NCBI RefSeq assembly: GCF_000730165.1
Contig: NZ_CP022111.1
Location: 1,922,001 to 1,986,000 of the forward strand
DNA from: Nitrospirillum viridazoti CBAmc
GTDB lineage: Bacteria; Pseudomonadota; Alphaproteobacteria; Azospirillales; Azospirillaceae
Reading direction: 5' to 3'
DNA: 64,000 bases
The notes under the pieces were generated by a model. The model had not been told where the DNA came from. It searched no databases and worked only from the letters and a program-made list of their open reading frames with translations. A program made the position numbers and the translations under genes. Positions 5,386-52,984 of the stretch are shown piece after piece. The first letter of the stretch is position 1; each line of letters opens with the position of its first letter.

Positions 5386-6408
5386 ATGACGTCGAAGTTC
5401 CTTAAATCGGCCCTGGCCGATTTCAACGGCGCATCCATCCTGATCACCGGCGGGACCGGATCCTTCGGCCGCCAGTTCGTGCGCTATCTGCTGGAACACG
5501 CCAAGCCGCGGCGGATCATCATCTTCTCCCGCGATGAGTTCAAACAGTATGAAATGCAGCAGCAGCTGGGCGTGACCCACGAGGGCGTGCTGCGTTTCTT
5601 CATCGGCGACGTGCGCGACCGGTCCCGCCTGGAAATGGCGATGCGCGAGGTCGAGTACTGCATCCACGCCGCCGCCCTGAAGCATGTGCCGACGGCGGAG
5701 TACAACCCCATCGAATGCATCCGCACCAACGTTTATGGGGCGGAGAATGTGGTGCACGCGGCCCTGGCGGCGGGGGTGCGCAAGGTCATCGCCCTGTCCA
5801 CCGACAAGGCCGCCAGCCCCATCAACCTGTATGGCGCCAGCAAGCTGGCGTCCGACAAGATTTTCGTGGCGTCGAACAACCTGTCGGGATCGGTGGGCAC
5901 CCGCTTCGCGGTCGTGCGCTATGGCAACGTCGTGGGGTCGCGCGGCAGCGTCATCCCGCTGTTCCGCCGCCTGATCGCCGAGGGCGCGGGCGAGCTGCCC
6001 ATCACGGATGAGCGCATGACGCGCTTTTGGATCACCCTGCAGCATGGGGTGGAGTTCGTGGCGTCCTGCTTCGGCATGATGCAGGGCGGCGAAATCTACG
6101 TGCCCAAGATTCCCAGCATGCGGGTGGGCGACCTGGCCCGCTGCATGGCGCCGGACCTGCCGCACAAGGTCATCGGCATCCGTCCCGGCGAAAAGCTGCA
6201 CGAGGTCATGATCACCGAGGACGACAGCCGTCAGACCTTCGAGATGGAGGACCGCTACGTCATCGAGCCGGCCTTCAACTGGTGGACGCGCCAGGCCTAC
6301 GTCAAGCTGGGGGCCAAGCCGGTACCCGATGGTTTCAGCTATCGCAGCGACAGCAACACGGACTGGCTGACCCCCGAACGCTTGGCCGTCCTGCTGCAGA
6401 GGCCGTAA
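5386..6408 (+). CDS. pseB: UDP-N-acetylglucosamine 4,6-dehydratase (inverting)
   Basis: This cytoplasmic enzyme makes UDP-2-acetamido-2,6-dideoxy-beta-L-arabino-hexos-4-ulose from UDP-GlcNAc, the first step of pseudaminic acid synthesis. It is a 340-residue extended SDR. The nucleotide-binding GGTGSFG is at residues 22-28, STDK at 138-141, and the catalytic Tyr149-xxx-Lys153 follows in 'YGASK'. Length and motifs fit PseB/FlmA rather than membrane-bound PglF-type dehydratases. The stop codon overlaps the pseC start (TAATG), so the two are co-transcribed. The divergent neighbour is the giant TPR-glycosyltransferase, which fits a flagellin-glycosylation role. The main alternative is a retaining dehydratase for another 4-amino sugar, but the presence of the other Pse enzymes argues for PseB. 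Confidence 0.9.
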   Translation: MTSKFLKSALADFNGASILITGGTGSFGRQFVRYLLEHAKPRRIIIFSRDEFKQYEMQQQLGVTHEGVLRFFIGDVRDRSRLEMAMREVEYCIHAAALKHVPTAEYNPIECIRTNVYGAENVVHAALAAGVRKVIALSTDKAASPINLYGASKLASDKIFVASNNLSGSVGTRFAVVRYGNVVGSRGSVIPLFRRLIAEGAGELPITDERMTRFWITLQHGVEFVASCFGMMQGGEIYVPKIPSMRVGDLARCMAPDLPHKVIGIRPGEKLHEVMITEDDSRQTFEMEDRYVIEPAFNWWTRQAYVKLGAKPVPDGFSYRSDSNTDWLTPERLAVLLQRP

Positions 6409-7652
6409 TGGCTGCCGACACCCCGTCTTCGCCTCCCTATCTGCCCTATGGCCGGCAGGCCATCGATGAGGACGATATCGCCGCCGTCACCGCCGTGCTG
6501 CGCGGCGACTGGCTGACGCAAGGCCCCACCGTCACCCGGTTCGAGCAGGCCTTCGCCCAAGCCGTGGGCGCCCGCCACGCCGTCGCTTGCGCCAATGGGA
6601 CCGCGGCGTTGCACCTGGCGTGCATGGCGTTGGACCTGCAACCCGGTGACGCCGTGGTGGTGCCTGCCGTCACCTTCCTCGCCACCGCCAACGCCGCCCA
6701 CTATTGCGGGGCGGAGGTGGCCTTCGCCGATGTCGATCCCGAAACCGGCCTGATGCGCCGGGCGGACGCCGAGGCCGCCATCGCCCGGGCGCAGGCCGCC
6801 GGCTGGCGGGTGCGCGCCCTGGCGCCGGTGCACTTCGCCGGCCAGGCGGCGGACTTGGACGCCCTGGGCGACCTGGCCGAGGCGAGCGGCCTAGCCATCA
6901 TCGAGGACGCCTGCCACGCCGTGGGCAGCCGCCGCGCCAGCCGGGCCGGGGCCACCGGAGATGGGGAAACCGTGGCCATCGGCGCCTGCGACCGCTCCGC
7001 CATGGCCTGCTTCTCCTTCCATCCGGTCAAGACCATCGCCGCCGGCGAGGGCGGCATGGTCACCACCAATGACGACGCCCTGGCGCGCAGCCTGCGGCGC
7101 GATGTCAGCCACGGCATGGTGCGTGACCCCGGCAGTTTCCAGGACAGGAAGGCGGCCTTTGGCGCCACCGGTGCCGCCAACCCCTGGTATTACGAAATGC
7201 CGGCGCCCGGGTACAATTACCGCCTGACCGACATCCACGCCGCCTTGGGCCTGAGCCAGTTGGGCAAGCTGCACCGCTTCGCCCGCCGGCGGGCGGAGAT
7301 GGTGGCGCGCTACGATGAACGCCTCGCGCCTCTGGCCCACCTCATTCGGCACGCGGGGCGCAGCGGTGGAGAGCCCGCCTGGCACCTTTACGTCGTCCTG
7401 ATCGACTTCATGGCCCTGGGCCGGGACCGCGCCGCCGTCATGGCGGATCTCAAGGCCCAAGGCGTGGGCAGCCAGGTGCACTACATCCCGGTGCACCACC
7501 AGCCCTATTACCGGGAGCGCTACGGCAGCCTGGACCTGCCTGGCGCCGACGGCTGGTACCAGGCGTGCCTGTCCCTGCCGCTGTTCCCCGCCATGACCGA
7601 CGGCGATGTCGACCGCGTGGTGGCGGCCCTGGAACACCTGGTCAAGGCGTGA
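6408..7652 (+). CDS. pseC: UDP-4-amino-4,6-dideoxy-N-acetyl-beta-L-altrosamine aminotransferase
   Basis: This PLP-dependent aminotransferase of the DegT/DnrJ/EryC1 family gives the 4-amino sugar from the PseB product, with glutamate as the usual donor. It has 414 residues. The N-terminal 'YLPYGRQAIDEDDI' segment and the 'GDWLTQGP' motif are typical of PseC. The PLP lysine is Lys208 in 'FHPVKTIAAGEGG', with an upstream 'EDACHAVGS' that contacts the cofactor. The start ATG at 6408 shares one base with the pseB stop. A longer upstream extension in the same frame lies inside pseB and is not used. The next gene is convergent, so the transcription unit on this side is just pseB-pseC. Confidence 0.9.
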   Translation: MAADTPSSPPYLPYGRQAIDEDDIAAVTAVLRGDWLTQGPTVTRFEQAFAQAVGARHAVACANGTAALHLACMALDLQPGDAVVVPAVTFLATANAAHYCGAEVAFADVDPETGLMRRADAEAAIARAQAAGWRVRALAPVHFAGQAADLDALGDLAEASGLAIIEDACHAVGSRRASRAGATGDGETVAIGACDRSAMACFSFHPVKTIAAGEGGMVTTNDDALARSLRRDVSHGMVRDPGSFQDRKAAFGATGAANPWYYEMPAPGYNYRLTDIHAALGLSQLGKLHRFARRRAEMVARYDERLAPLAHLIRHAGRSGGEPAWHLYVVLIDFMALGRDRAAVMADLKAQGVGSQVHYIPVHHQPYYRERYGSLDLPGADGWYQACLSLPLFPAMTDGDVDRVVAALEHLVKA

Positions 7653-24929: not shown

Positions 24930-25706
24930 ATGTCCCAGCCCAGCGACACCCTGCACAATCCCATGAGCCTGGCCGGCCGGTCCCTGCTGGTCACCGGCGC
25001 GTCGGCCGGCATCGGCCAGGCCACGGCCGTGCTGCTGTCACGCCTGGGCGCCCGCGTCACCCTGAACGGCCGGGATGAGGGGCGGCTGGCCGACACCCTG
25101 TCACGCCTCACGGGTGAAGGGCACCGCGTGGCGCCCTTCGACATGGGCGACCTGGACGCCATCCCGGCCTGGATGAAGGAGCAGGCGGCGCTGTCCGGGC
25201 CCTTCGACGGGGTGGCGCACTGCGCCGGCATCCAGACGCTGCGCCCCATCCGCATCTTCTCCCAGGAATTCTTCGACCAGGTGATGCGGGTCAACCTGGG
25301 CTCGTGCCTGGCCCTGGCCAAGGGCCTGCGGCAGAAGGGCGTGCGGGCCGAGCGCTCGGCCATGGTCTTCATCTCCTCCACCGCCGCCACCGCCGCCTCG
25401 CCCGCCAACATCGTCTACGCCGCGGCCAAGGGCGGCATCATCGCCGCCACCAAGGGCCTGTCGGCCGAGTTGCTGCCCGACGGCATCCGCGTCAACTGTG
25501 TGGTGCCCAGCATCGTGATGACCGACCTGATCGAGCGCGGGTTCGAAAAGCTGAGCCAGGAACAGATCGACCATCTGCAGCGGCTGCAGCCCCTGGGCTT
25601 CGGCCATGTCGACGACGTGGCCCACGCCATCGCCTATCTGCTGGCCGACACCGGCCGCTGGATTACCGGCACGGCCCTGACCGTCGACGGGGGGCGTACG
25701 GCGTGA
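24930..25706 (+). CDS. Short-chain dehydrogenase/reductase (FabG-like)
   Basis: A 258-residue classical SDR. The cofactor loop is 'TGASAGIG' (about residues 20-27), NAG-type 'HCAGIQ' follows, and the catalytic Ser with Tyr-xxx-Lys is in 'SSTAATAASPANIVYAAAKGG'. The C-terminal 'RWITGTALTVDGG' is typical of FabG-like 3-oxoacyl-ACP reductases. Its stop overlaps the Rieske start (GTGA). It is the first gene of a tight operon with a split Rieske oxygenase and a PseH-like acetyltransferase. With two ACPs and a KAS III elsewhere in the window, it may reduce a 3-oxoacyl-ACP to the 3-hydroxyacyl form for sugar acylation. A sugar dehydrogenase is the main alternative. A start at ATG 24963 is possible. 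Confidence 0.85.
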   Translation: MSQPSDTLHNPMSLAGRSLLVTGASAGIGQATAVLLSRLGARVTLNGRDEGRLADTLSRLTGEGHRVAPFDMGDLDAIPAWMKEQAALSGPFDGVAHCAGIQTLRPIRIFSQEFFDQVMRVNLGSCLALAKGLRQKGVRAERSAMVFISSTAATAASPANIVYAAAKGGIIAATKGLSAELLPDGIRVNCVVPSIVMTDLIERGFEKLSQEQIDHLQRLQPLGFGHVDDVAHAIAYLLADTGRWITGTALTVDGGRTA

Positions 25707-26098
25707 CGGCCCCCTGGATCAAGCTGGGCGACGCCGCCGGCGTGGCCGCCCATGGCGATTACCTGACGGGCCGGGTGCCGGACGCCGCCGGGGCCGCCAT
25801 CCCCGTGGTGGTGCAGAATTTCCAGGGTGCCTTGAAGGCCTTCCGCAACGTCTGTTCCCACCGCTACGCCCTGATCCATGATCGGCCCTGCGGGCGTGGC
25901 CTGCTGCGCTGCCCCTACCACGGCTGGGTCTATGACGCGGCCGGCGTGCCCATCGGCATCCCCTTCGACGACAGCGATTTCCACCTGGATGCGGAGGCCC
26001 GCCGCCGCCTGGCCCTGGCGCCGGTGGGCCTGGCCGTGGCCAGCGGCCAGGTGTGGGTGAACGCGGATGCCGCCGCCATCTTCACGGAGCCGGCGTGA
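25703..26098 (+). CDS. Stand-alone Rieske [2Fe-2S] protein, half of a split oxygenase
   Basis: A 131-residue protein that is just a Rieske domain. The cluster ligands are Cys51-x-His53 and Cys70-x-x-His73 in 'CSHRYALIHD' and 'CPYHGW', the spacing seen in ring-hydroxylating oxygenase alpha subunits rather than small ferredoxins. The GTG start overlaps the SDR stop, and its stop overlaps the next start (TGATG), so translation is coupled. The following gene is an oxygenase catalytic domain that lacks exactly this segment. The segment closely resembles the N-terminal part of the intact Rieske oxygenase at 51866 in the same window. It should pass electrons to the neighbouring mononuclear iron protein. 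No reductase is seen nearby. Confidence 0.9.
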   Translation: MTAPWIKLGDAAGVAAHGDYLTGRVPDAAGAAIPVVVQNFQGALKAFRNVCSHRYALIHDRPCGRGLLRCPYHGWVYDAAGVPIGIPFDDSDFHLDAEARRRLALAPVGLAVASGQVWVNADAAAIFTEPA

Positions 26099-27054
26099 TG
26101 GGGGAAATGCTGCCCGCCCGCTGGTTCGACGATCCCGATTGCCACGCCCGGGAACTGGCGGCGCTACGCCGGCAGTGGCTGTACGTCGGCACCCGGTTCG
26201 ACACACCCCTGACACGTACGGTGCTGGACACCCCCGTCACCGTGACCGCCGCCCTCACGGCCAGGGATGACCAGGGCCGCACGCTGGAGGTGGACGCCTG
26301 CGGCGCCTTCGTCTTCATGCGGCTGGAAGGCGGCGGCCCAGGCCTGGCCGACCACCTGAGACCGGTCGCGGGGCATCTCGCCCGGCTGTCGGGCCAGTGC
26401 GACCAGCCCATCGCCGAGGACCACGTGGCGTTCGCCGCCAATTGGAAGGCGCTGGTGGAAAACACCATGGACGACTTCCACGGCTCCACCGTCCACCCCA
26501 CCACCATCCACCCCGCCGTGCATGCCGACTGGCAGACGCACCTGGAAACCGCCCGCCATGGCCGCCACAGCACATCCAGCTGGCTGCTGTCCGAAGGGAC
26601 GGAGACATGGTGGCGGCGCATCGACGGCAAGATGGGCCTGCGCCGCGTGACCGACCACGCCCGCTATGATCATTGCTTCGTCTTCCCCAACCTGTACGTG
26701 GCCAGCTTTTACGGCGCCATGGTCATCACCCACACGGTGACGCCCCTGGCGGCGGACCGCAGCCGCCTGGACTGGCGCCTGTTCCTGCCGGTGACGGCCC
26801 CGGAAAAGCCGGCCGTGGCCGCCTTCCGCCGGTCACTGACCAGTGTGCTGGCCGGGTCCGCCCGCGCCGTGATCCTGGAGGACCAGCCGCTGTGCGAACG
26901 GGTGCAACAAGGGCGGGCGGCAGCTCTGGGTCCCGGTATCCTGGGCCGGCGTGAGCGCCGCATCGCCGACTTCCACCATGCCTGGGCCCGCACCCTGGGA
27001 CTGGACGCCCCGCCGCTGCCGGCGGACGCGCCCTATGAGGAGAATGCCGTATGA
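26098..27054 (+). CDS. Rieske-oxygenase catalytic subunit lacking its own Rieske domain
   Basis: A 318-residue protein with the mononuclear-iron domain of a Rieske oxygenase. 'ENTMDDFHGSTVH' (121-133) gives the bridging Asp and the ligands His128 and His133. Asp262 in 'LEDQPLCERVQQG' is the expected third ligand. The N-terminal 35 residues ('ARWFDDPDCHARELAALRRQWLYVG') look like the normal first helix of an alpha subunit, but the sequence then passes to the domain junction with no CxH/CxxH pair. The Rieske part is supplied by the overlapping upstream gene. The substrate is unknown. Context (PseH-like gene overlapping by ATGA) suggests a nucleotide sugar or its acyl chain rather than an aromatic. 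Confidence 0.88.
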   Translation: MGEMLPARWFDDPDCHARELAALRRQWLYVGTRFDTPLTRTVLDTPVTVTAALTARDDQGRTLEVDACGAFVFMRLEGGGPGLADHLRPVAGHLARLSGQCDQPIAEDHVAFAANWKALVENTMDDFHGSTVHPTTIHPAVHADWQTHLETARHGRHSTSSWLLSEGTETWWRRIDGKMGLRRVTDHARYDHCFVFPNLYVASFYGAMVITHTVTPLAADRSRLDWRLFLPVTAPEKPAVAAFRRSLTSVLAGSARAVILEDQPLCERVQQGRAAALGPGILGRRERRIADFHHAWARTLGLDAPPLPADAPYEENAV

Positions 27055-27611
27055 CCCTCAGCTATCGCCGGCCGACGGAGGAGGACGCCCGGCTGCTGCT
27101 GGACTGGCGTCTGCGGCCCGACATCTCCCGCCACCTTTTCACACAGGTGGAGGATGACATGGGGAAGCAGCGGGCCTGGCTGGCGCGCAGCAACGCGCGC
27201 GACGACTATCACCACCGCATCATGATGGTGGATGGGGTGCCGGTGGGTTACGCCTCCATCACCATCACCCACGCGGCCTGGGGCATCGCCACCCTGGGCG
27301 CCTATATGGCCGACCGGCGCGGCCGCACCGGCTCCGCCCCGCTGAACTTCGCCCACGCCCTGAACCATGTCTTCTACGCCTTGGGCCTGCGCAAGGTGGT
27401 GAACCAGGTCATGGCCGACAACGACCGTGTCCTGCGCGGCCAGACCATGCTGGGCTATCGCCATGTCGGCGTGCTGAAGGACCATGCCGTGAAGGAAGGT
27501 CAGGCATACGATGTCCATCTGTTCGAGATATCGGCGGGCGAATGGGCGGAAAAGCGCCTGAAATTCAGGGAATATGCCGATTGGGATGGCCATATGTGGC
27601 CCCCTGGCTAA
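27051..27611 (+). CDS. pseH: GNAT acyltransferase, probable PseH (UDP-4-amino-sugar N-acetyltransferase)
   Basis: A 186-residue GNAT. The N-terminus 'LSYRRPTEEDARLLLDWRLRPDISRHLF' has the 'WR..P.ir..' pattern of PseH and related amino-sugar acetyltransferases. The acyl-CoA/pantetheine loop is in the 'ADRRGRTGSAPLNFAHAL' region, where the usual Q/RxxGxG/A is loosely kept, and 'GLRKVVNQVMADND' is a normal GNAT core strand. In the Pse pathway it acylates the 4-amino group after PseC. The ATGA overlap with the Rieske catalytic gene is striking. Since ACPs and a KAS III are encoded in the window, the donor might be an acyl-ACP or an unusual acyl-CoA rather than acetyl-CoA; this is inference. Confidence 0.72.
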   Translation: MTLSYRRPTEEDARLLLDWRLRPDISRHLFTQVEDDMGKQRAWLARSNARDDYHHRIMMVDGVPVGYASITITHAAWGIATLGAYMADRRGRTGSAPLNFAHALNHVFYALGLRKVVNQVMADNDRVLRGQTMLGYRHVGVLKDHAVKEGQAYDVHLFEISAGEWAEKRLKFREYADWDGHMWPPG

Positions 27612-30948: not shown

Positions 30949-31869
30949 TTATGAGGAGCCGAGGCCTTGCGCCAAACGACCCAGGAAGCCAAGGGCGGGG
31001 CCGCCGGTGCGCGGCAGGCCTTTATAGCGGGCCACCGGTTCCGGCACCGTGCGCAGGATGTGGGCGAACTGCGCCGCCTCGGTCGCGGTCAGGTCGGCCA
31101 GGGCGCGCTGATAGGTGCGGATGGTGAACAGTATGGCACCGGTGGCGGGCAGCCGGCGCAAGGTCTGGCGTTCGATGCGCAGGAACAGGCGGTGCCCGGC
31201 ATTATCGGCGGTGATGGCGTTATCGGCGGCGGTGTGCGCCACCTCATCCGGCTGGAACAGGGCGGGGTCGTCGTTCAGGCCCCAGTTCATGCGCCATACC
31301 GGCCGTTCCGGCGCCAGGGTTTCCAGGAAGCGGTCCACCGGCCGCCCCAGTTTCTCGCCATATAGGGCCACCGGCGCGTGGATGCCGGCCATGGGCCGCC
31401 CCAGCTTTTCATGCAGGCGCCAGCGGTTGGGGAAGCACAGCACGGCGGCGGCCAGCACCGGCACGCCATCAGGGTCCGGCAGCAACAGGCAGAGATCCTC
31501 CGCCACCAGGCGGCCGGCGACCTCCAGCGGATTAGGGCCGGCGTCCGCCAAGTCCCAGGCCTCCCCGGTGATGTGGCAGGGGAAACGGTGCCCGTCGCGG
31601 GTGTAGGCACGCGGGAAGTGACGGGACAGATGGTCCGCCAGCAACGCCAGCAATTCCCCCTGGGCCGCCTCGCCGCCCGGCAGGAAGCCGGTCACGGCCC
31701 CGTGCCGCTGGACCAGCAACTGGCGGCGCTGCGCCAACAGGGCGGGGCAGCTGTCGTCCACCATCAGCCACCGGGCGGGGTCCAGGGCCATCAGGCCCAT
31801 GGCCATGCGCCAGTCGCCGCCGTCGAACGGCCAGCACGGCTGCTCCGGCGGCAGATCCCAGGCGTTCAC
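30949..31869 (-). CDS. DUF3445 protein, heme-dependent oxidative N-demethylase-like
   Basis: A 306-residue protein of the DUF3445 family, whose characterised member is the alpha subunit of heme-dependent oxidative N-demethylase. Visible family segments are 'MGLMALDPARWLMVDDSCPALLAQRRQLL', 'LPDPDGVPVLAAAVLCFPNRWRLHEKLGRPMAGIHAPV', 'MNWGLNDDPALF' and 'LFLRIERQTLRRLPATGAILFTIRTYQ' types. GTG 31869 starts 5 bases after the KAS III-like stop, so it is co-transcribed with that gene. The frame continues upstream within the KAS III gene; that part is not used. The other subunits of the known N-demethylase are absent. Its substrate here is unknown; an N-methylated amino sugar is one possibility given the neighbours. 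Confidence 0.8.
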   Translation of the reverse strand: MNAWDLPPEQPCWPFDGGDWRMAMGLMALDPARWLMVDDSCPALLAQRRQLLVQRHGAVTGFLPGGEAAQGELLALLADHLSRHFPRAYTRDGHRFPCHITGEAWDLADAGPNPLEVAGRLVAEDLCLLLPDPDGVPVLAAAVLCFPNRWRLHEKLGRPMAGIHAPVALYGEKLGRPVDRFLETLAPERPVWRMNWGLNDDPALFQPDEVAHTAADNAITADNAGHRLFLRIERQTLRRLPATGAILFTIRTYQRALADLTATEAAQFAHILRTVPEPVARYKGLPRTGGPALGFLGRLAQGLGSS

Positions 31870-31874
31870 GGGCG

Positions 31875-32957
31875 TCAGACTTCCAGCGGCGCGAAATCGT
31901 CCGGCAACTCCGCCAGCGTGGGCTCGGCGATGGGGCCGACCTCCGCAACCAGGGTGCCCCAGGACCACCCGACGCCGAAGCCGGCCATCAGCAGCTTCTT
32001 CGGACCTTCCGCCAGCATGGGGCCCAGGCGGTGGCAGATGGCCAGCGGGACGGAGGCGGAGCTGGTGTTGCCGAACTTCTCCATGTCGATCAGGAAGCGC
32101 TCGGGCGCCGCCCCGATCTTCTTGCGGATGTGGTCCAGCATCATGCGGTTCGCCTGGTGCGGGACGATCATATCCAAATCGTCCAGCGTCACGCCGGCAT
32201 GCTCCATCGCCTCGCGCAGCAGCGGCGGGACGGAGCGCAAGGTGAAGGTGAAGACCTCCGCCCCGTTCAGGTGCAGGCGGGCGTCGCGGTAGAGGCGCTT
32301 GTGCTCCTCCTCCGACCAGGGCTCCTCGCCCGGGATCAGGCAGTCGCGCTTGCCGCCGGCCTTCACGAAGATGTGCTTGGCCCCGCTGCCATCAGTGCCC
32401 AGGATGGCGTGGATGGGGGGCGCGTCGGCATCCACCTCCAGCGCCGTGGCGCTGCCCGCGTCGCCGAACAGGGGAAGGGTGGCGCGGTCGTCCGGGCGCA
32501 GCCAGCGGGCGGAATTGTCGCCGGCCAGCACCAGCGCGCGCCGCGCCGTGCTGCCGCCCAGGAGGCGCGCCGCCATCCAGGTGCCATAGGCGAAGCCGGA
32601 GCAGCCCAGCGGCACGTCGAAGGCCGCCGTGCTGGTGGGCAGCCCCAGGCGCCGCTGCATGACGGCGGCGGTGACGGGCAGCACGTAATCGGCATCCTGG
32701 CTGACAAAGATCAGAAGGTCGACCGAGGCCGGGTCCCAGCCCAGCTGTTGCATCAGCCCCTCGGCCGCCGCCACGCACATGTCGGACGCCATGTAGGGCC
32801 GGGGCAGCAGGCGCCGCTCCGCCACGCCGATGGTGGCGTAGAGCTTCTTCGCCTCATCTTCCGTGAACAGGGTGTGGTCTTCCAGGTAGGAATGCCGTTC
32901 CTTCGGCACCACGGCCCGGAAGCCCTTGATCCGCACGCCTTCGACGATGGCCTTCAC
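31875..32957 (-). CDS. 3-oxoacyl-ACP synthase III (KAS III/FabH-like)
   Basis: A 360-residue condensing enzyme that in FabH joins an acyl-CoA with malonyl-ACP. The catalytic triad is complete: Cys119 in 'PLGCSGF', His267 in 'PHQANR' and Asn297 in 'FGNTSS'. It is longer than housekeeping FabH (about 320) and carries an insert around residues 205-230, as in specialised KAS III proteins of natural-product and glycan clusters. It is divergent from pseG across 75 bases and co-directional with the DUF3445 gene. I infer that it makes a short 3-oxoacyl chain on one of the two ACPs for sugar acylation. Housekeeping fatty-acid initiation is unlikely because no other fab genes are nearby. Confidence 0.88.
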   Translation of the reverse strand: MKAIVEGVRIKGFRAVVPKERHSYLEDHTLFTEDEAKKLYATIGVAERRLLPRPYMASDMCVAAAEGLMQQLGWDPASVDLLIFVSQDADYVLPVTAAVMQRRLGLPTSTAAFDVPLGCSGFAYGTWMAARLLGGSTARRALVLAGDNSARWLRPDDRATLPLFGDAGSATALEVDADAPPIHAILGTDGSGAKHIFVKAGGKRDCLIPGEEPWSEEEHKRLYRDARLHLNGAEVFTFTLRSVPPLLREAMEHAGVTLDDLDMIVPHQANRMMLDHIRKKIGAAPERFLIDMEKFGNTSSASVPLAICHRLGPMLAEGPKKLLMAGFGVGWSWGTLVAEVGPIAEPTLAELPDDFAPLEV

Positions 32958-33032: not shown

Positions 33033-34094
33033 TTGAGCACCATCCTGATCCGCGCCGACGCCACCGCGTCCATGGGCACCGGCCACGTCATGCGCTGCCT
33101 GTCGGTGGCGGAGGCCTTGCGGGAACGGGGGATATCACCCCTGTTCGGTGCCGTGGACCTGCCGCCCGCCCTGGCGCGTCGGCTGGACGCCGCCGGCTTC
33201 GGCGTCAGCCTGCTGGCGGGCCCGGCGGCAAGTGGGGCGGACCTGGCCAGCCTGGCCGGGCAGATACGCCGGCACGACGCCCGCGCCGTGATCCTGGACG
33301 GTTATCACTTCAACGATGCCTATCGTGCCGGACTGGCGGCGCTGGGCAAACCGGTCATGGCCTTCGACGACGGGCCGGGCACGCGGCCCCTGCACGCCCG
33401 GCTGATTGTGAACGCAGGCGCGGCGGTGGATGAGGCCACCTATCGCGCCGCCAATCCGGATGCCATGCTGGCGCTGGGGCCCGCCTATGCCCCCCTGCGG
33501 GTGGAGTTCCGCCGGGCGCGCGGCCAGGCCTTGCCCCCCCTTGACCGCCGTCGCCGCCTGCTGCTGACCTTCGGCGGCACCGACCCGGCGGGCCTGACGC
33601 TGCCCTGCCTGAAGCGCCTGGCCCCAGCCCTGCCGGCCGGCGCCGGCCTGGACGTGGTGGTGGGCGGCAGCAACCCCAACACCGACTGCATCCGCACCGC
33701 CGGAGACCGCTACCCCAACACGGTCGTCCATGTGGAAACGCCGCGCATGGCCGACCTGATGCGCGAAGCAGGCCTGGCCCTGTCCGCCGCCGGCGGCACC
33801 TTGGGGGAGTTGGCCTGCCTGGCGGTGCCCACGCTGCTGGTGGTGGTGGCGGATAACCAGGCCAGCAGTGCCGGCGCGGTGGCGGCATCAGGCAAGGCCC
33901 GGGTCATCGACGCGCGCGGCATGGACAAGGCCGAGGCGGCGGAGCGCATCACGGCCGACGCCCTGGCGCTATGGGCCGATGCCGACGCACGCGCGGCCCT
34001 GAGCCACCGCATCGGCGAGGGCGATGGCGGCCAGATGGTGGACGGGTTGGGCGCGGTGCGCATCGCCGACGCGTTGCTGGCCCTGCCGGCCTGA
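33033..34094 (+). CDS. pseG: UDP-2,4-diacetamido-2,4,6-trideoxy-beta-L-altropyranose hydrolase
   Basis: A 353-residue GT-B-fold hydrolase that removes UDP from the 2,4-diacylated sugar, step four of the Pse pathway. The diagnostic N-terminus is 'RADATASMGTGHVMRCLSVA' with the catalytic His in 'GTGHVMRC'. Later blocks include 'LTFGGTDPAGLTL' and 'SAAGGTLGELACLAVPTLL'. The start is a TTG with AAAGG upstream; no ATG or GTG in frame precedes the conserved motif, so the rare start is well supported. It is divergent from the KAS III-like gene and followed 19 bases later by a helicase gene, an odd neighbour for a sugar enzyme. Confidence 0.92.
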   Translation: MSTILIRADATASMGTGHVMRCLSVAEALRERGISPLFGAVDLPPALARRLDAAGFGVSLLAGPAASGADLASLAGQIRRHDARAVILDGYHFNDAYRAGLAALGKPVMAFDDGPGTRPLHARLIVNAGAAVDEATYRAANPDAMLALGPAYAPLRVEFRRARGQALPPLDRRRRLLLTFGGTDPAGLTLPCLKRLAPALPAGAGLDVVVGGSNPNTDCIRTAGDRYPNTVVHVETPRMADLMREAGLALSAAGGTLGELACLAVPTLLVVVADNQASSAGAVAASGKARVIDARGMDKAEAAERITADALALWADADARAALSHRIGEGDGGQMVDGLGAVRIADALLALPA

Positions 34095-43202: not shown

Positions 43203-43436
43203 TCAGGCCGTGACGTGGTCCGACACCAGGGCCAGCAGGTCGTCCACGGTCTTGGCCTTGGCCAGATCCTCGCCCGCCACCACGGTGTTGAACTTCTCAT
43301 CCACCAGGGCGATGAAGCTGATGACCGCCAGGCTGTCCCAGCTGTCGATCTCATCCAGCGTTTCGCCGCCCTTCAGGGTGCCGGGGTCCAGCTCCAGCAT
43401 CTCATCCAGCGCCGCCAGGAATTCGTTCCGGTTCAT
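43203..43436 (-). CDS. Acyl carrier protein, first copy
   Basis: A 77-residue ACP. Ser35 in 'DSWDSLAVISFIALVDEKF' is the phosphopantetheine attachment site. The N-terminal helix 'FLAALDEMLELDPGTLKGGETLDEI' and the C-terminal 'AKTVDDLLALVSDHV' fit stand-alone carrier proteins of natural-product or polysaccharide loci rather than AcpP, which has 'DSLDTVELVM'. ATG 43436 follows pseF by 14 bases and is preceded by AGGAAAAGAAGAG-type purines. A 30-codon upstream extension overlaps pseF and is not used. Confidence 0.9.
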   Translation of the reverse strand: MNRNEFLAALDEMLELDPGTLKGGETLDEIDSWDSLAVISFIALVDEKFNTVVAGEDLAKAKTVDDLLALVSDHVTA

Positions 43437-43450
43437 CTCTTCTTTTCCTC

Positions 43451-44215
43451 TCAAGCCAGGGGCTTCTGCACCACGTCGCGGTTCAGCAGCACCCAATCGG
43501 GGTGCCGGCGCAGCACGTCCAGACAATCCGTCCAGGTGAAGTGCGGCTTGGCCGGCAACAGGGTTTCAAGCAAACGGCGGACCAGTTGGAAGTCCTCCAC
43601 CGTGTCCACGCACCAGCGCTGCGGCCCCATCTCCACCGGCGCCGGGCCCGCTGGTGGCAGGGAGCCCAGGCGGAAACGGTCCGGCCGGCGATAGATGAAG
43701 GGCGTCACATGCTCACGTTCGAACGGTTCCCTTGCCTCTTGCCACGCCGCCTGCAAGGCCGTCATTGACATGGCTTCGGCGTCCAGGCCGCGCGGATAAT
43801 AGCCTATGTCGACGGAGGCATGGTCCAGCGGCGGGTCCGCCGCCAGGAAAAGGGTCAGCAGCCGGTCGATCAGACCAGGGTCGATCAGGGGGCAGTCGCC
43901 CGTCACCCGCACCGCCACATCGGCATGATGGGCAAGGGCGGCCCGGCAAAAACGATCCAGCACGTCATGCTCGCTGCCCCGGAAGCAGGCAACGCCCAGG
44001 ACGCGGCACAGCTCGGCGATGGCGTCGTCGGTCGGGCCATCGCTGGTGGCCACCACCACCTCGTCCACCAGGGCGGCACGGCGCAGGCGCTCCACCTGGT
44101 GGGCCAGCAGCGACTTGCCCGCCACGGTCAGCAGCACCTTGCCCGGCAGGCGGGTGGACCCCATGCGCGCCTGGGTGATGCAGACGACCCGGGGCTTTTG
44201 GGCCGGGACCGTCAC
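43451..44215 (-). CDS. pseF: CMP-nonulosonate cytidylyltransferase, SpsF/PseF-like
   Basis: A 254-residue nucleotidyltransferase (CTP_transf_3). The glycine/arginine loop is 'QARMGSTRLPGKVL' (residues 15-28), with 'VATSDGPTDDAI' and 'RVTGDCPLIDP' (metal-binding Asp) downstream. It belongs to the SpsF-type branch found in many pseudaminic acid loci and would activate pseudaminic acid with CTP to CMP-Pse. The ATGA overlap with the pseI gene supports this. The alternative, a KdsB-like enzyme for Kdo, is less likely because kdsB has 'RLPGKPL' in a different context and this gene is fused into the pseI operon. Confidence 0.82.
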   Translation of the reverse strand: MTVPAQKPRVVCITQARMGSTRLPGKVLLTVAGKSLLAHQVERLRRAALVDEVVVATSDGPTDDAIAELCRVLGVACFRGSEHDVLDRFCRAALAHHADVAVRVTGDCPLIDPGLIDRLLTLFLAADPPLDHASVDIGYYPRGLDAEAMSMTALQAAWQEAREPFEREHVTPFIYRRPDRFRLGSLPPAGPAPVEMGPQRWCVDTVEDFQLVRRLLETLLPAKPHFTWTDCLDVLRRHPDWVLLNRDVVQKPLA

Positions 44216-45264
44216 GGCTGGACCATGCCCCAGTCCAGAGGCTGGCCGGCATCGATATCACGGGCAGCGCGGGCGCCCAGCACCTGGTCCAAATGCTTGG
44301 GCGACAGCCCCAGGCCGGGGCGGACGGAGCGGACGTTGGCCGGCGTAAACACCTCCCCCGCCTTCACGGGAGCGGAGACGTAGAGCGAGCGGCGGAAGGA
44401 CCGGCCGCCGGCCTCGGACGGCTTGACGGCATAGCCGACCTGGCCCAAGGCGGCATGGGCCACGCGGCAAGCGTCGGCCATGGCCTTGAACTCCCCCGGT
44501 TCCAGGGAGAAGGAGGCGTCGACGCCGCCCTCGGCCCGCGACAGGGTCAGATGCTTCTCGATAACGATGGCGCCCAGCGCCACCGCCGCCACCGGCACGG
44601 CGATGCCATGGGTGTGGTCGGACAGGCCGGTGGGCACGCCGAAGGCCTGGGCCAGGTGAGGGATGGTGCGCAGGTCGCATTCCTCCGGCGGGGTGGGATA
44701 GCCGCTGGTGCAATGGAGCAGCACGGGGTCGGGCGTGCCCGCCGGCGCCGCCTCGCGCGCGGCCGTCACCGCGTCGTCGATCTCACCCAAGGTGGCCATG
44801 CCGGTGGAGATGATCAGCGGCTTGCCCTTGGCGGCTGCGTAACGGATCAGCGGCAGGTCCACGATTTCATAGGAGGCGATCTTGAACGCCGGCGCGCCCA
44901 GCCGGTCCAGCAGATCCACCGCCGTGGGATCGAAGGGTGAGCTGAAAATGGTGATGCCGATCATGGCGGCATGGGCGAACAGCTGGGGATGCCAGGCCCA
45001 GGGGGTGTGCGCCTCCTCATACAGCTCATGCAGGCTGCGGCCATCCCAGGGACCGCCATGGATCTGGAACTCCGGGCGGTTGGACTTCAGGGTGATGGTG
45101 TCGGCCGTGTAGGTCTGCAGCTTGACCGCGTCCGCACCCGCCGCCTTGGCGGCATCGATCAGGCGGATGGCGCGCTCGATCTCCCCCTTATGGTTGCCGG
45201 ACATCTCGGCGATGAGATACGGCACCTGGCCGGTGCGGAAGGTGAGACGGGCGGGATCGGACAT
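44212..45264 (-). CDS. pseI: Pseudaminic acid synthase
   Basis: A 350-residue NeuB-family synthase that condenses phosphoenolpyruvate with 2,4-diacetamido-2,4,6-trideoxy-L-altrose. The TIM barrel starts with 'YLIAEMSGNHKGEIERAIRLIDAAKAAGADAVKLQTY'-type segments, then 'FSSPFD', 'KIASYEI' and 'STGMATLGEI'. The C-terminal SAF domain is 'FRRSLYVSAPVKAGEVFT'. The reading 'NHKGE' and 'SFSLEPGEF' is closer to PseI than to sialic (NeuB) or legionaminic (LegI) enzymes, but the final choice needs a tree. It is the first gene of a five-gene operon with pseF, two ACPs and a hydrolase. Confidence 0.88.
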   Translation of the reverse strand: MSDPARLTFRTGQVPYLIAEMSGNHKGEIERAIRLIDAAKAAGADAVKLQTYTADTITLKSNRPEFQIHGGPWDGRSLHELYEEAHTPWAWHPQLFAHAAMIGITIFSSPFDPTAVDLLDRLGAPAFKIASYEIVDLPLIRYAAAKGKPLIISTGMATLGEIDDAVTAAREAAPAGTPDPVLLHCTSGYPTPPEECDLRTIPHLAQAFGVPTGLSDHTHGIAVPVAAVALGAIVIEKHLTLSRAEGGVDASFSLEPGEFKAMADACRVAHAALGQVGYAVKPSEAGGRSFRRSLYVSAPVKAGEVFTPANVRSVRPGLGLSPKHLDQVLGARAARDIDAGQPLDWGMVQP

Positions 45265-51865: not shown

Positions 51866-52980
51866 ATGACGGACAGGTTGGACGCGATGCGGGCGGCGGT
51901 GGGGCCGGAGGATTATGGCGCCGCCGCCGCGACGGCGGAGACGCAGGCGCTGTTCGCCCGCCTTTGGCACTTCGTCGGCTTCGATGACGAACTGACGGCG
52001 CCCGACGGCTATCTGGTGCGCACCATCGCCGGCGTGCCGGTGGTGGTGCAGCGTTTCGATGACGACATCCGCGCCTTCCGCGACGTCTGTTCCCACCGCC
52101 ATGCCCGCCTGCACACCGCGGAGCGCGGCCACGGGCCCCTGCGCTGCCCCTATCATGGCTGGACCTACAGCCGGGAGGGCGTGCCGGTGGGCATACCGGG
52201 CAACGATCCCTGTTTCCAGCTAGACAAGGCGGACAAGGCCGCCCTGGCGCTGACCGGGTACGAGGCGGCGCGGCGCGGGCGCTTCATCTTCGTCCGCCTC
52301 ATTCCAGGCGGGCCCGATCTGGACATCTGGCTGGGTCCGCTGGGCGCCTGGCTGGACGCCGTGTCCGACGGCTTCGCCGCCCCCTTCGACCAGGCGCCGC
52401 TGGACTGGCGGGCGGATTGGAAGGTGGGCATGGAAAACGTGCTGGAGGTTTACCACGTCGACAGCGTGCATCCGGAAACCTTCCGCACGGTAACCGAGGG
52501 CGCCTGGAAGTGCGCCGAGCACGGCCCCCACAGCACCGGCACCATCGGCCTGACCGCCGAAACCCGCCGCTGGTGGGAGGGGGTGGCCAAGCGGCTGAAG
52601 CTGACGCCCCTGACCGCCTTCACCGACTATGACCACGCCATCATCTTCCCCAACCTGGCCATCGGCCTGACCGCCGGCCTGATGGCCAGCGTACAGACGT
52701 ACGAGCCGGTGTATGCGCCGGACGGCGCGGTGCGGCCCGGCCGTTGCCACCTGCGCTACCGCCTGTCATTGGCCAGGCAGCAGCCGGACGCCAGCGCCGC
52801 CGCCCGCCGGGGCGTGGAAGGGCATCTCGCCGACTTCAACCGCCGGCTGCTGGCGGAGGACCAGTCGGTGGCGGAGGCGGCCTGGGCGGGCAGCCAGCAG
52901 GCCGACCGCCCCGCCCTGCTGGGCCACAATGAGGGACGCATCCGCGCCTTCCACGCGGCTTGGCTGAAGGAGATGGGCCG

Positions 52981-52984
<4 letters not shown>
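51866..52984 (+). CDS. Rieske non-heme iron oxygenase, intact alpha-subunit type
   Basis: A 372-residue oxygenase. The Rieske domain has Cys75-x-His77 and Cys94-x-x-His97 ('CSHRHARLH', 'CPYHGWTY'). The catalytic domain has His197 and His202 in 'MENVLEVYHVDSVH' and Asp332 in 'LAEDQSVAEAAW' as the expected iron ligands. The N-terminal 'CSHR' and 'CPYHGW' region strongly resembles the split oxygenase at 25703-27054, so the two probably share ancestry. It needs an electron donor; none is encoded here. ATG 51866 replaces a poor TTG upstream. It is divergent from the TPR-glycosyltransferase and overlaps the DUF885 gene end by 4 bases. A role in modifying a glycan sugar is inferred. Confidence 0.9.

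Follow-up and report, generated by a model that had tools for sequence, protein, structure and literature searches.

In trimers of Rieske oxygenases (RHOs), the passage of electrons from one subunit to the next is the normal state of affairs, as is evident from CntA, where the Rieske cluster and the mononuclear iron are 44 Å apart within a subunit and 12.2 Å apart across subunits, with Glu205 bridging the two centers (PMC7948474). The table of a review of these enzymes, in the portion available, lists assemblies of full alpha subunits only, with or without beta subunits (PMC12445004). Enzymes that depart from this plan have been described. For instance, the caffeine N7-demethylase of Pseudomonas putida CBB5, NdmC/NdmD/NdmE, is an active multi-chain RHO (PMC4408171), and the chlorophyllide a oxygenase (CAO) of Micromonas pusilla is made of two chains, is active as a purified enzyme, and has been suggested to form a trimer of dimers (PMC9615114). 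Since electrons cross between RHO chains anyway, an enzyme with its cluster and its iron on separate chains can work.

An Azospirillaceae locus with overlapping genes for two such chains

The sequence analysed here, referred to as the window, is a stretch of 64,000 nucleotides from Nitrospirillum viridazoti CBAmc (contig NZ_CP022111.1, positions 1,922,001 to 1,986,000). Within it, four overlapping plus-strand genes form a run that encodes an SDR-family oxidoreductase (24930..25706), chain A of 131 amino acids (25703..26098), chain B of 318 amino acids (26098..27054), and a PseH-like N-acyltransferase of the GNAT type (27051..27611), the latter assigned by synteny and by a match to TIGR03585 (1e-15) that is below the equivalog cut-off. 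The SDR gene, first of the run, is conserved beside the oxygenase in relatives, and its stop codon overlaps the GTG initiation codon of A in the arrangement GTGA. The TGA stop of A shares one base with the start of B (TGATG, 26096..26100), and B in turn overlaps the PseH-like gene as ATGA.

The two frames are as set out in a preliminary description of this locus. Chain A consists of a Rieske [2Fe-2S] domain on its own, with PF00355 (1.1e-10) as its only Pfam match, and the motif C51-x-H53...C70-x2-H73 (25853..25921, plus strand) provides the CxH and CxxH cluster ligands, which are invariant in 18 aligned rows. Chain B consists of an N-terminal helix and the mononuclear-iron catalytic domain, matches PF00848 (2.2e-25) and the related VanA_C family PF19112 (6.5e-9), and has no Rieske domain match in Pfam. 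Its 2-His-1-carboxylate triad is formed by H128 and H133, which lie with the bridging D125 at 26470..26496, and by D262 (26881..26883), assigned by the family motif; all four residues, encoded on the plus strand, are likewise invariant in 18 aligned rows. A single-chain RHO alpha subunit carries the Rieske and iron domains in one polypeptide, whereas here PF00355 is found in A only and PF00848 in B only, so that the cluster belongs to one chain and the iron site to the other. That most alpha subunits carry both, as previously stated, is borne out by 29 of 30 sampled loci in which a Rieske motif lies in the same frame as PF00848, the lone exception being a short broken fragment. The Rieske oxygenase at this locus is genuinely split over two proteins.

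Distribution of the pair, a natural fusion, and a full-length paralog

The family to which the window belongs comprises soil- and plant-associated bacteria, and 82 Azospirillaceae genomes were used to determine how widely the pair is distributed. The pair is present in 30 of the 82, and neither gene is ever found alone; seven of these genomes belong to Nitrospirillum, 15 to Azospirillum, and eight to a third genus, g11. The two doubts raised in the preliminary description, that the split might be a frameshift or might be absent from relatives, are both answered by this count. The genome lies near Nitrospirillum amazonense, and its best named relatives are 94-95% identical in B. Beyond the Azospirillaceae, no B orthologs were found among 385 genomes at class level and 398 at phylum level, which returned only weaker matches to full-length RHOs, and no relatives of B were found in viral contigs. 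The overlap of stop and start codons is kept, as TGATG in most Nitrospirillum and as ATGA in most Azospirillum. The two Azospirillum genes already have separate annotations (WP_136701575.1 and WP_136701576.1), and no published description of the pair was found in the open literature searched.

In two Azospirillum genomes (L059, 6643-7962, and L080, 7086-8400), an insertion of about 1.3 kb is positioned exactly between A and B. The insertion encodes a TnpB-like protein, as judged by reading its sequence, and leaves the A and B frames intact, representing a natural separation of the two genes. The opposite arrangement is seen in one Nitrospirillum genome (G064, locus L076), where A and B make up one frame of 448 codons in unchanged order, with a clean junction at which both the stop codon of A and the start codon of B are gone. 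This natural fusion supports the notion that the two chains work as a unit. In the same genome, the gene for the full-length paralog introduced below (L142, G064:C1:543723-544806) is interrupted: its reading frame changes immediately ahead of the iron domain, through either natural decay or an assembly error.

The paralog, here termed F, belongs to the same subfamily as A and B; it is a full-length RHO alpha subunit with both PF00355 and PF00848, encoded about 25 kb downstream of A and B on the plus strand (51866..52984). At the bridging position F has Glu, not Asp. F accompanies A and B in all 30 genomes, counting the broken frame of G064, and a further 31 of the 82 have F with neither A nor B. 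In trees, A forms a clade with F to the exclusion of other RHOs when Rieske domains are compared (100/99), and B does so when catalytic domains are compared (100/99).

The constant company of F bears on what A might do. As a Rieske protein that stands alone, A could be a soluble, ferredoxin-like carrier for B or F that takes part in no fixed oxygenase complex; because F is present wherever A and B are, A could in principle serve F. However, the clade just described, from a tree without ferredoxins, places A among the Rieske domains of alpha subunits, the best matches to A among solved structures are alpha subunits and not ferredoxins, and A is never without B and is naturally fused to it in one case. 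A carrier role for A is thus considered unlikely. The explanation that we favour, and regard as probable, is that A and B together constitute one split RHO, derived from two alpha-subunit copies by reciprocal loss and acting in the oxidation of a sugar. In such an enzyme, the [2Fe-2S] cluster would come from A and the mononuclear iron from B, the two chains being the products of overlapping genes. We infer that the two chains would assemble, probably as A3B3, in a manner that would set the cluster of A beside the iron of B, with electrons crossing from one chain to the other through Asp125 of B. A meeting of cluster and iron through subunit contact, as put forward in the preliminary description, is the usual arrangement in RHO trimers.

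Origin of the two chains

Profile alignment to F provides a view of what each chain has retained. Chain A maps on F columns 38-182, a range that opens with the first Rieske strand and closes with the linker, whereas chain B covers F 17-374 except for the cluster loops, where it has a gap, such that the first Rieske strand is present in both chains. In addition, A and B can be aligned directly over 43 columns that correspond to the last Rieske strand and the linker (E 1.2e-6), with a score of 49.7 as compared to 27.9 or less in ordinary shuffles; two of the 200 column shuffles produced artefact scores, which spanned 5 and 8 columns.

The preliminary description had the Rieske segment missing from B. 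This is correct for the cluster loops, but in the approximately 50 residues that follow the N-terminal helix the Rieske-like strands remain. The structural model of B is poor overall (pLDDT 50, as compared to 67 for the model of A), and its use was restricted to the confident segment, residues 31-80, where pLDDT is 74-93. Residues 26-78 (26173..26331, plus strand) superpose on the Rieske ferredoxin 3dqy with an rmsd of 1.2 Å over 50 residues and a Z score of 6.3, a value that is weak when taken alone. Judged from alignment, model and superposition together, B appears to keep a small, vestigial Rieske beta-scaffold of its own. By sequence, Azospirillum has the longest version of this part of B and g11 the shortest. 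The A chains of Azospirillum have a C-terminal piece beyond the linker, and a decayed iron domain was considered as its source; the piece aligns with the iron domain in register but at non-significant values (E 0.33 and 0.53), and such an origin is not supported.

The operon slot between the SDR and PseH-like genes is occupied in different ways among relatives. A single full-length RHO is found there in A. brasilense-type genomes (L077, and L082 by gene order), two overlapping full-length RHOs are found in tandem in a genome of another family (L073, 5389-7634), and elsewhere the slot holds A and B or, in L076, their fusion. The tandem RHOs of L073 (genome G432), designated T1 and T2, do not group cleanly with A and B in trees, with grouping tests giving p values of 0.088 for A with T1, 0.22 for B with T2, and 0.032 for B with T1. 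No further tandem RHO pairs were found among 39 genomes of the G432 family. The L073 pair is consequently neither shown nor excluded as the direct ancestor, and the order of events suggested below is to be read accordingly.

Two accounts of the origin can be weighed against these data. According to the preliminary description, the Rieske domain was excised from the middle of one alpha-subunit gene and re-placed upstream, an account that suits the exact adjacency of the two genes and the domain order, Rieske first and then helix and iron domain, an order that is also that of the natural fusion and is new relative to an alpha subunit. Excision would not, however, give the same ancestral segment twice, as is seen for the first strand and for the last strand and linker, nor does it sit well with a scaffold in B or with the two full-length copies that occupy the slot in a relative, and we consider it improbable. 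The shared strand and linker, together with the scaffold in B, point instead to two alpha-subunit copies with reciprocal loss. An SDR-RHO-PseH operon would at first have held its full-length alpha-subunit gene in duplicate; one copy would then have lost its iron domain to become A, and the other its cluster loops to become B, with the small Rieske-like scaffold kept. A broader proposal, for which we would put the chances as evenly balanced, is that this one slot displays living states of splitting and re-fusion, that it holds the first example of a split by reciprocal cofactor loss, and that the scaffold in B has been reused for docking.

Selection on the two genes speaks to the remaining explanations. 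Both genes evolve under purifying selection, with pairwise dN/dS values of 0.15-0.38 (A) and 0.14-0.29 (B). The lack of a cluster in B might be taken to mean that B is a scaffold or regulator with no oxygenase function and that A is a remnant, but such constraint on both genes, and the invariance of all the iron ligands and of the bridging Asp, make this very unlikely. A sequencing error or a frameshifted pseudogene of one alpha-subunit gene, which only the change of frame at the A/B overlap would favour, can be dismissed, as the pair is conserved across three genera with its overlapping stop and start codons kept and is thus neither chance nor error, dN/dS is well below 1, and the A-B domain order differs from that of an alpha-subunit gene.

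Pseudaminic acid genes, possible substrate, and comparison with known oxygenases

The window contains further genes of the pseudaminic acid type. Matches to the models for PseB (5386-6408), PseG (33033-34094) and PseI (44212-45264, minus strand) are above cut-offs, matches for PseH and PseF are below cut-off, and PseC is seen only as a DegT-type aminotransferase (PseC-like; frame 6027-7652). A CMP-sugar transferase-like gene (43451-44215, minus strand) is also present. In g11, the genes form one compact cluster, in the order PseB-PseC-SDR-A-B-PseH-F, followed by SIS, PseI, PseF-like and ACP-like genes. From this neighbourhood, the A-B enzyme probably oxidises a precursor or an acyl group of a pseudaminic acid-type sugar. 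No publication was found that deals with a Rieske enzyme at a pseudaminic acid locus. There is no PF00970 reductase domain in the window, and five are encoded elsewhere in the genome.

A gene for ketoacyl-ACP synthase III (31875-32957, minus strand) is adjoined by one resembling the alpha subunit of a haem-dependent oxidative N-demethylase (30949-31968, minus strand; PF11927). A small protein (43203-43526, minus strand) is acyl carrier protein-like by eye, with no Pfam or NCBIfam match. In some relatives, ketoacyl-ACP synthase III and ACP-like genes are again found close to the oxygenase genes, an indication that the sugar may carry an unusual acyl group.

As electrons in RHOs pass between subunits, a covalent linkage of cluster and iron should be dispensable, and the A/B pair would represent a natural bacterial test of this expectation, its halves being separate proteins open to mixing, matching or titration. 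The route suggested here, in which each of two tandem duplicates loses one cofactor while the other copy makes up for it, would lead to a split without passing through an inactive intermediate. In addition, A-B and F, as two RHOs, would represent uncharacterised oxidation steps in pseudaminic acid-type sugar loci.

Split RHOs have precedents in Ndm and in Micromonas CAO, and the novelty of A/B is limited to that extent. The F subfamily groups with A/B in both trees and shares the SDR-PseH setting in A. brasilense-type genomes, but F has both cofactor domains in one chain and Glu in place of Asp at the bridging position. CntA is among the best solved-structure matches, and GbcA is the best NCBIfam model, with A and B far below its cut-off; these carnitine and glycine betaine oxygenases are single chains, unlike A/B, and in CntA the bridging residue is Glu205 where B has Asp. 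In the case of Ndm, as with A/B, the iron chain is without a Rieske cluster and the cluster comes from another polypeptide. However, the Rieske domain of Ndm is fused to the reductase NdmD, whereas A is 131 amino acids of Rieske domain only, and Ndm needs the GST-like NdmE, no counterpart of which was found beside A/B. The chains of Micromonas CAO reportedly carry the Rieske and iron motifs separately (Kunugi et al. 2013), and by description this enzyme is, like A/B, one RHO in two polypeptides, but in a eukaryotic alga and in the service of chlorophyll b synthesis.
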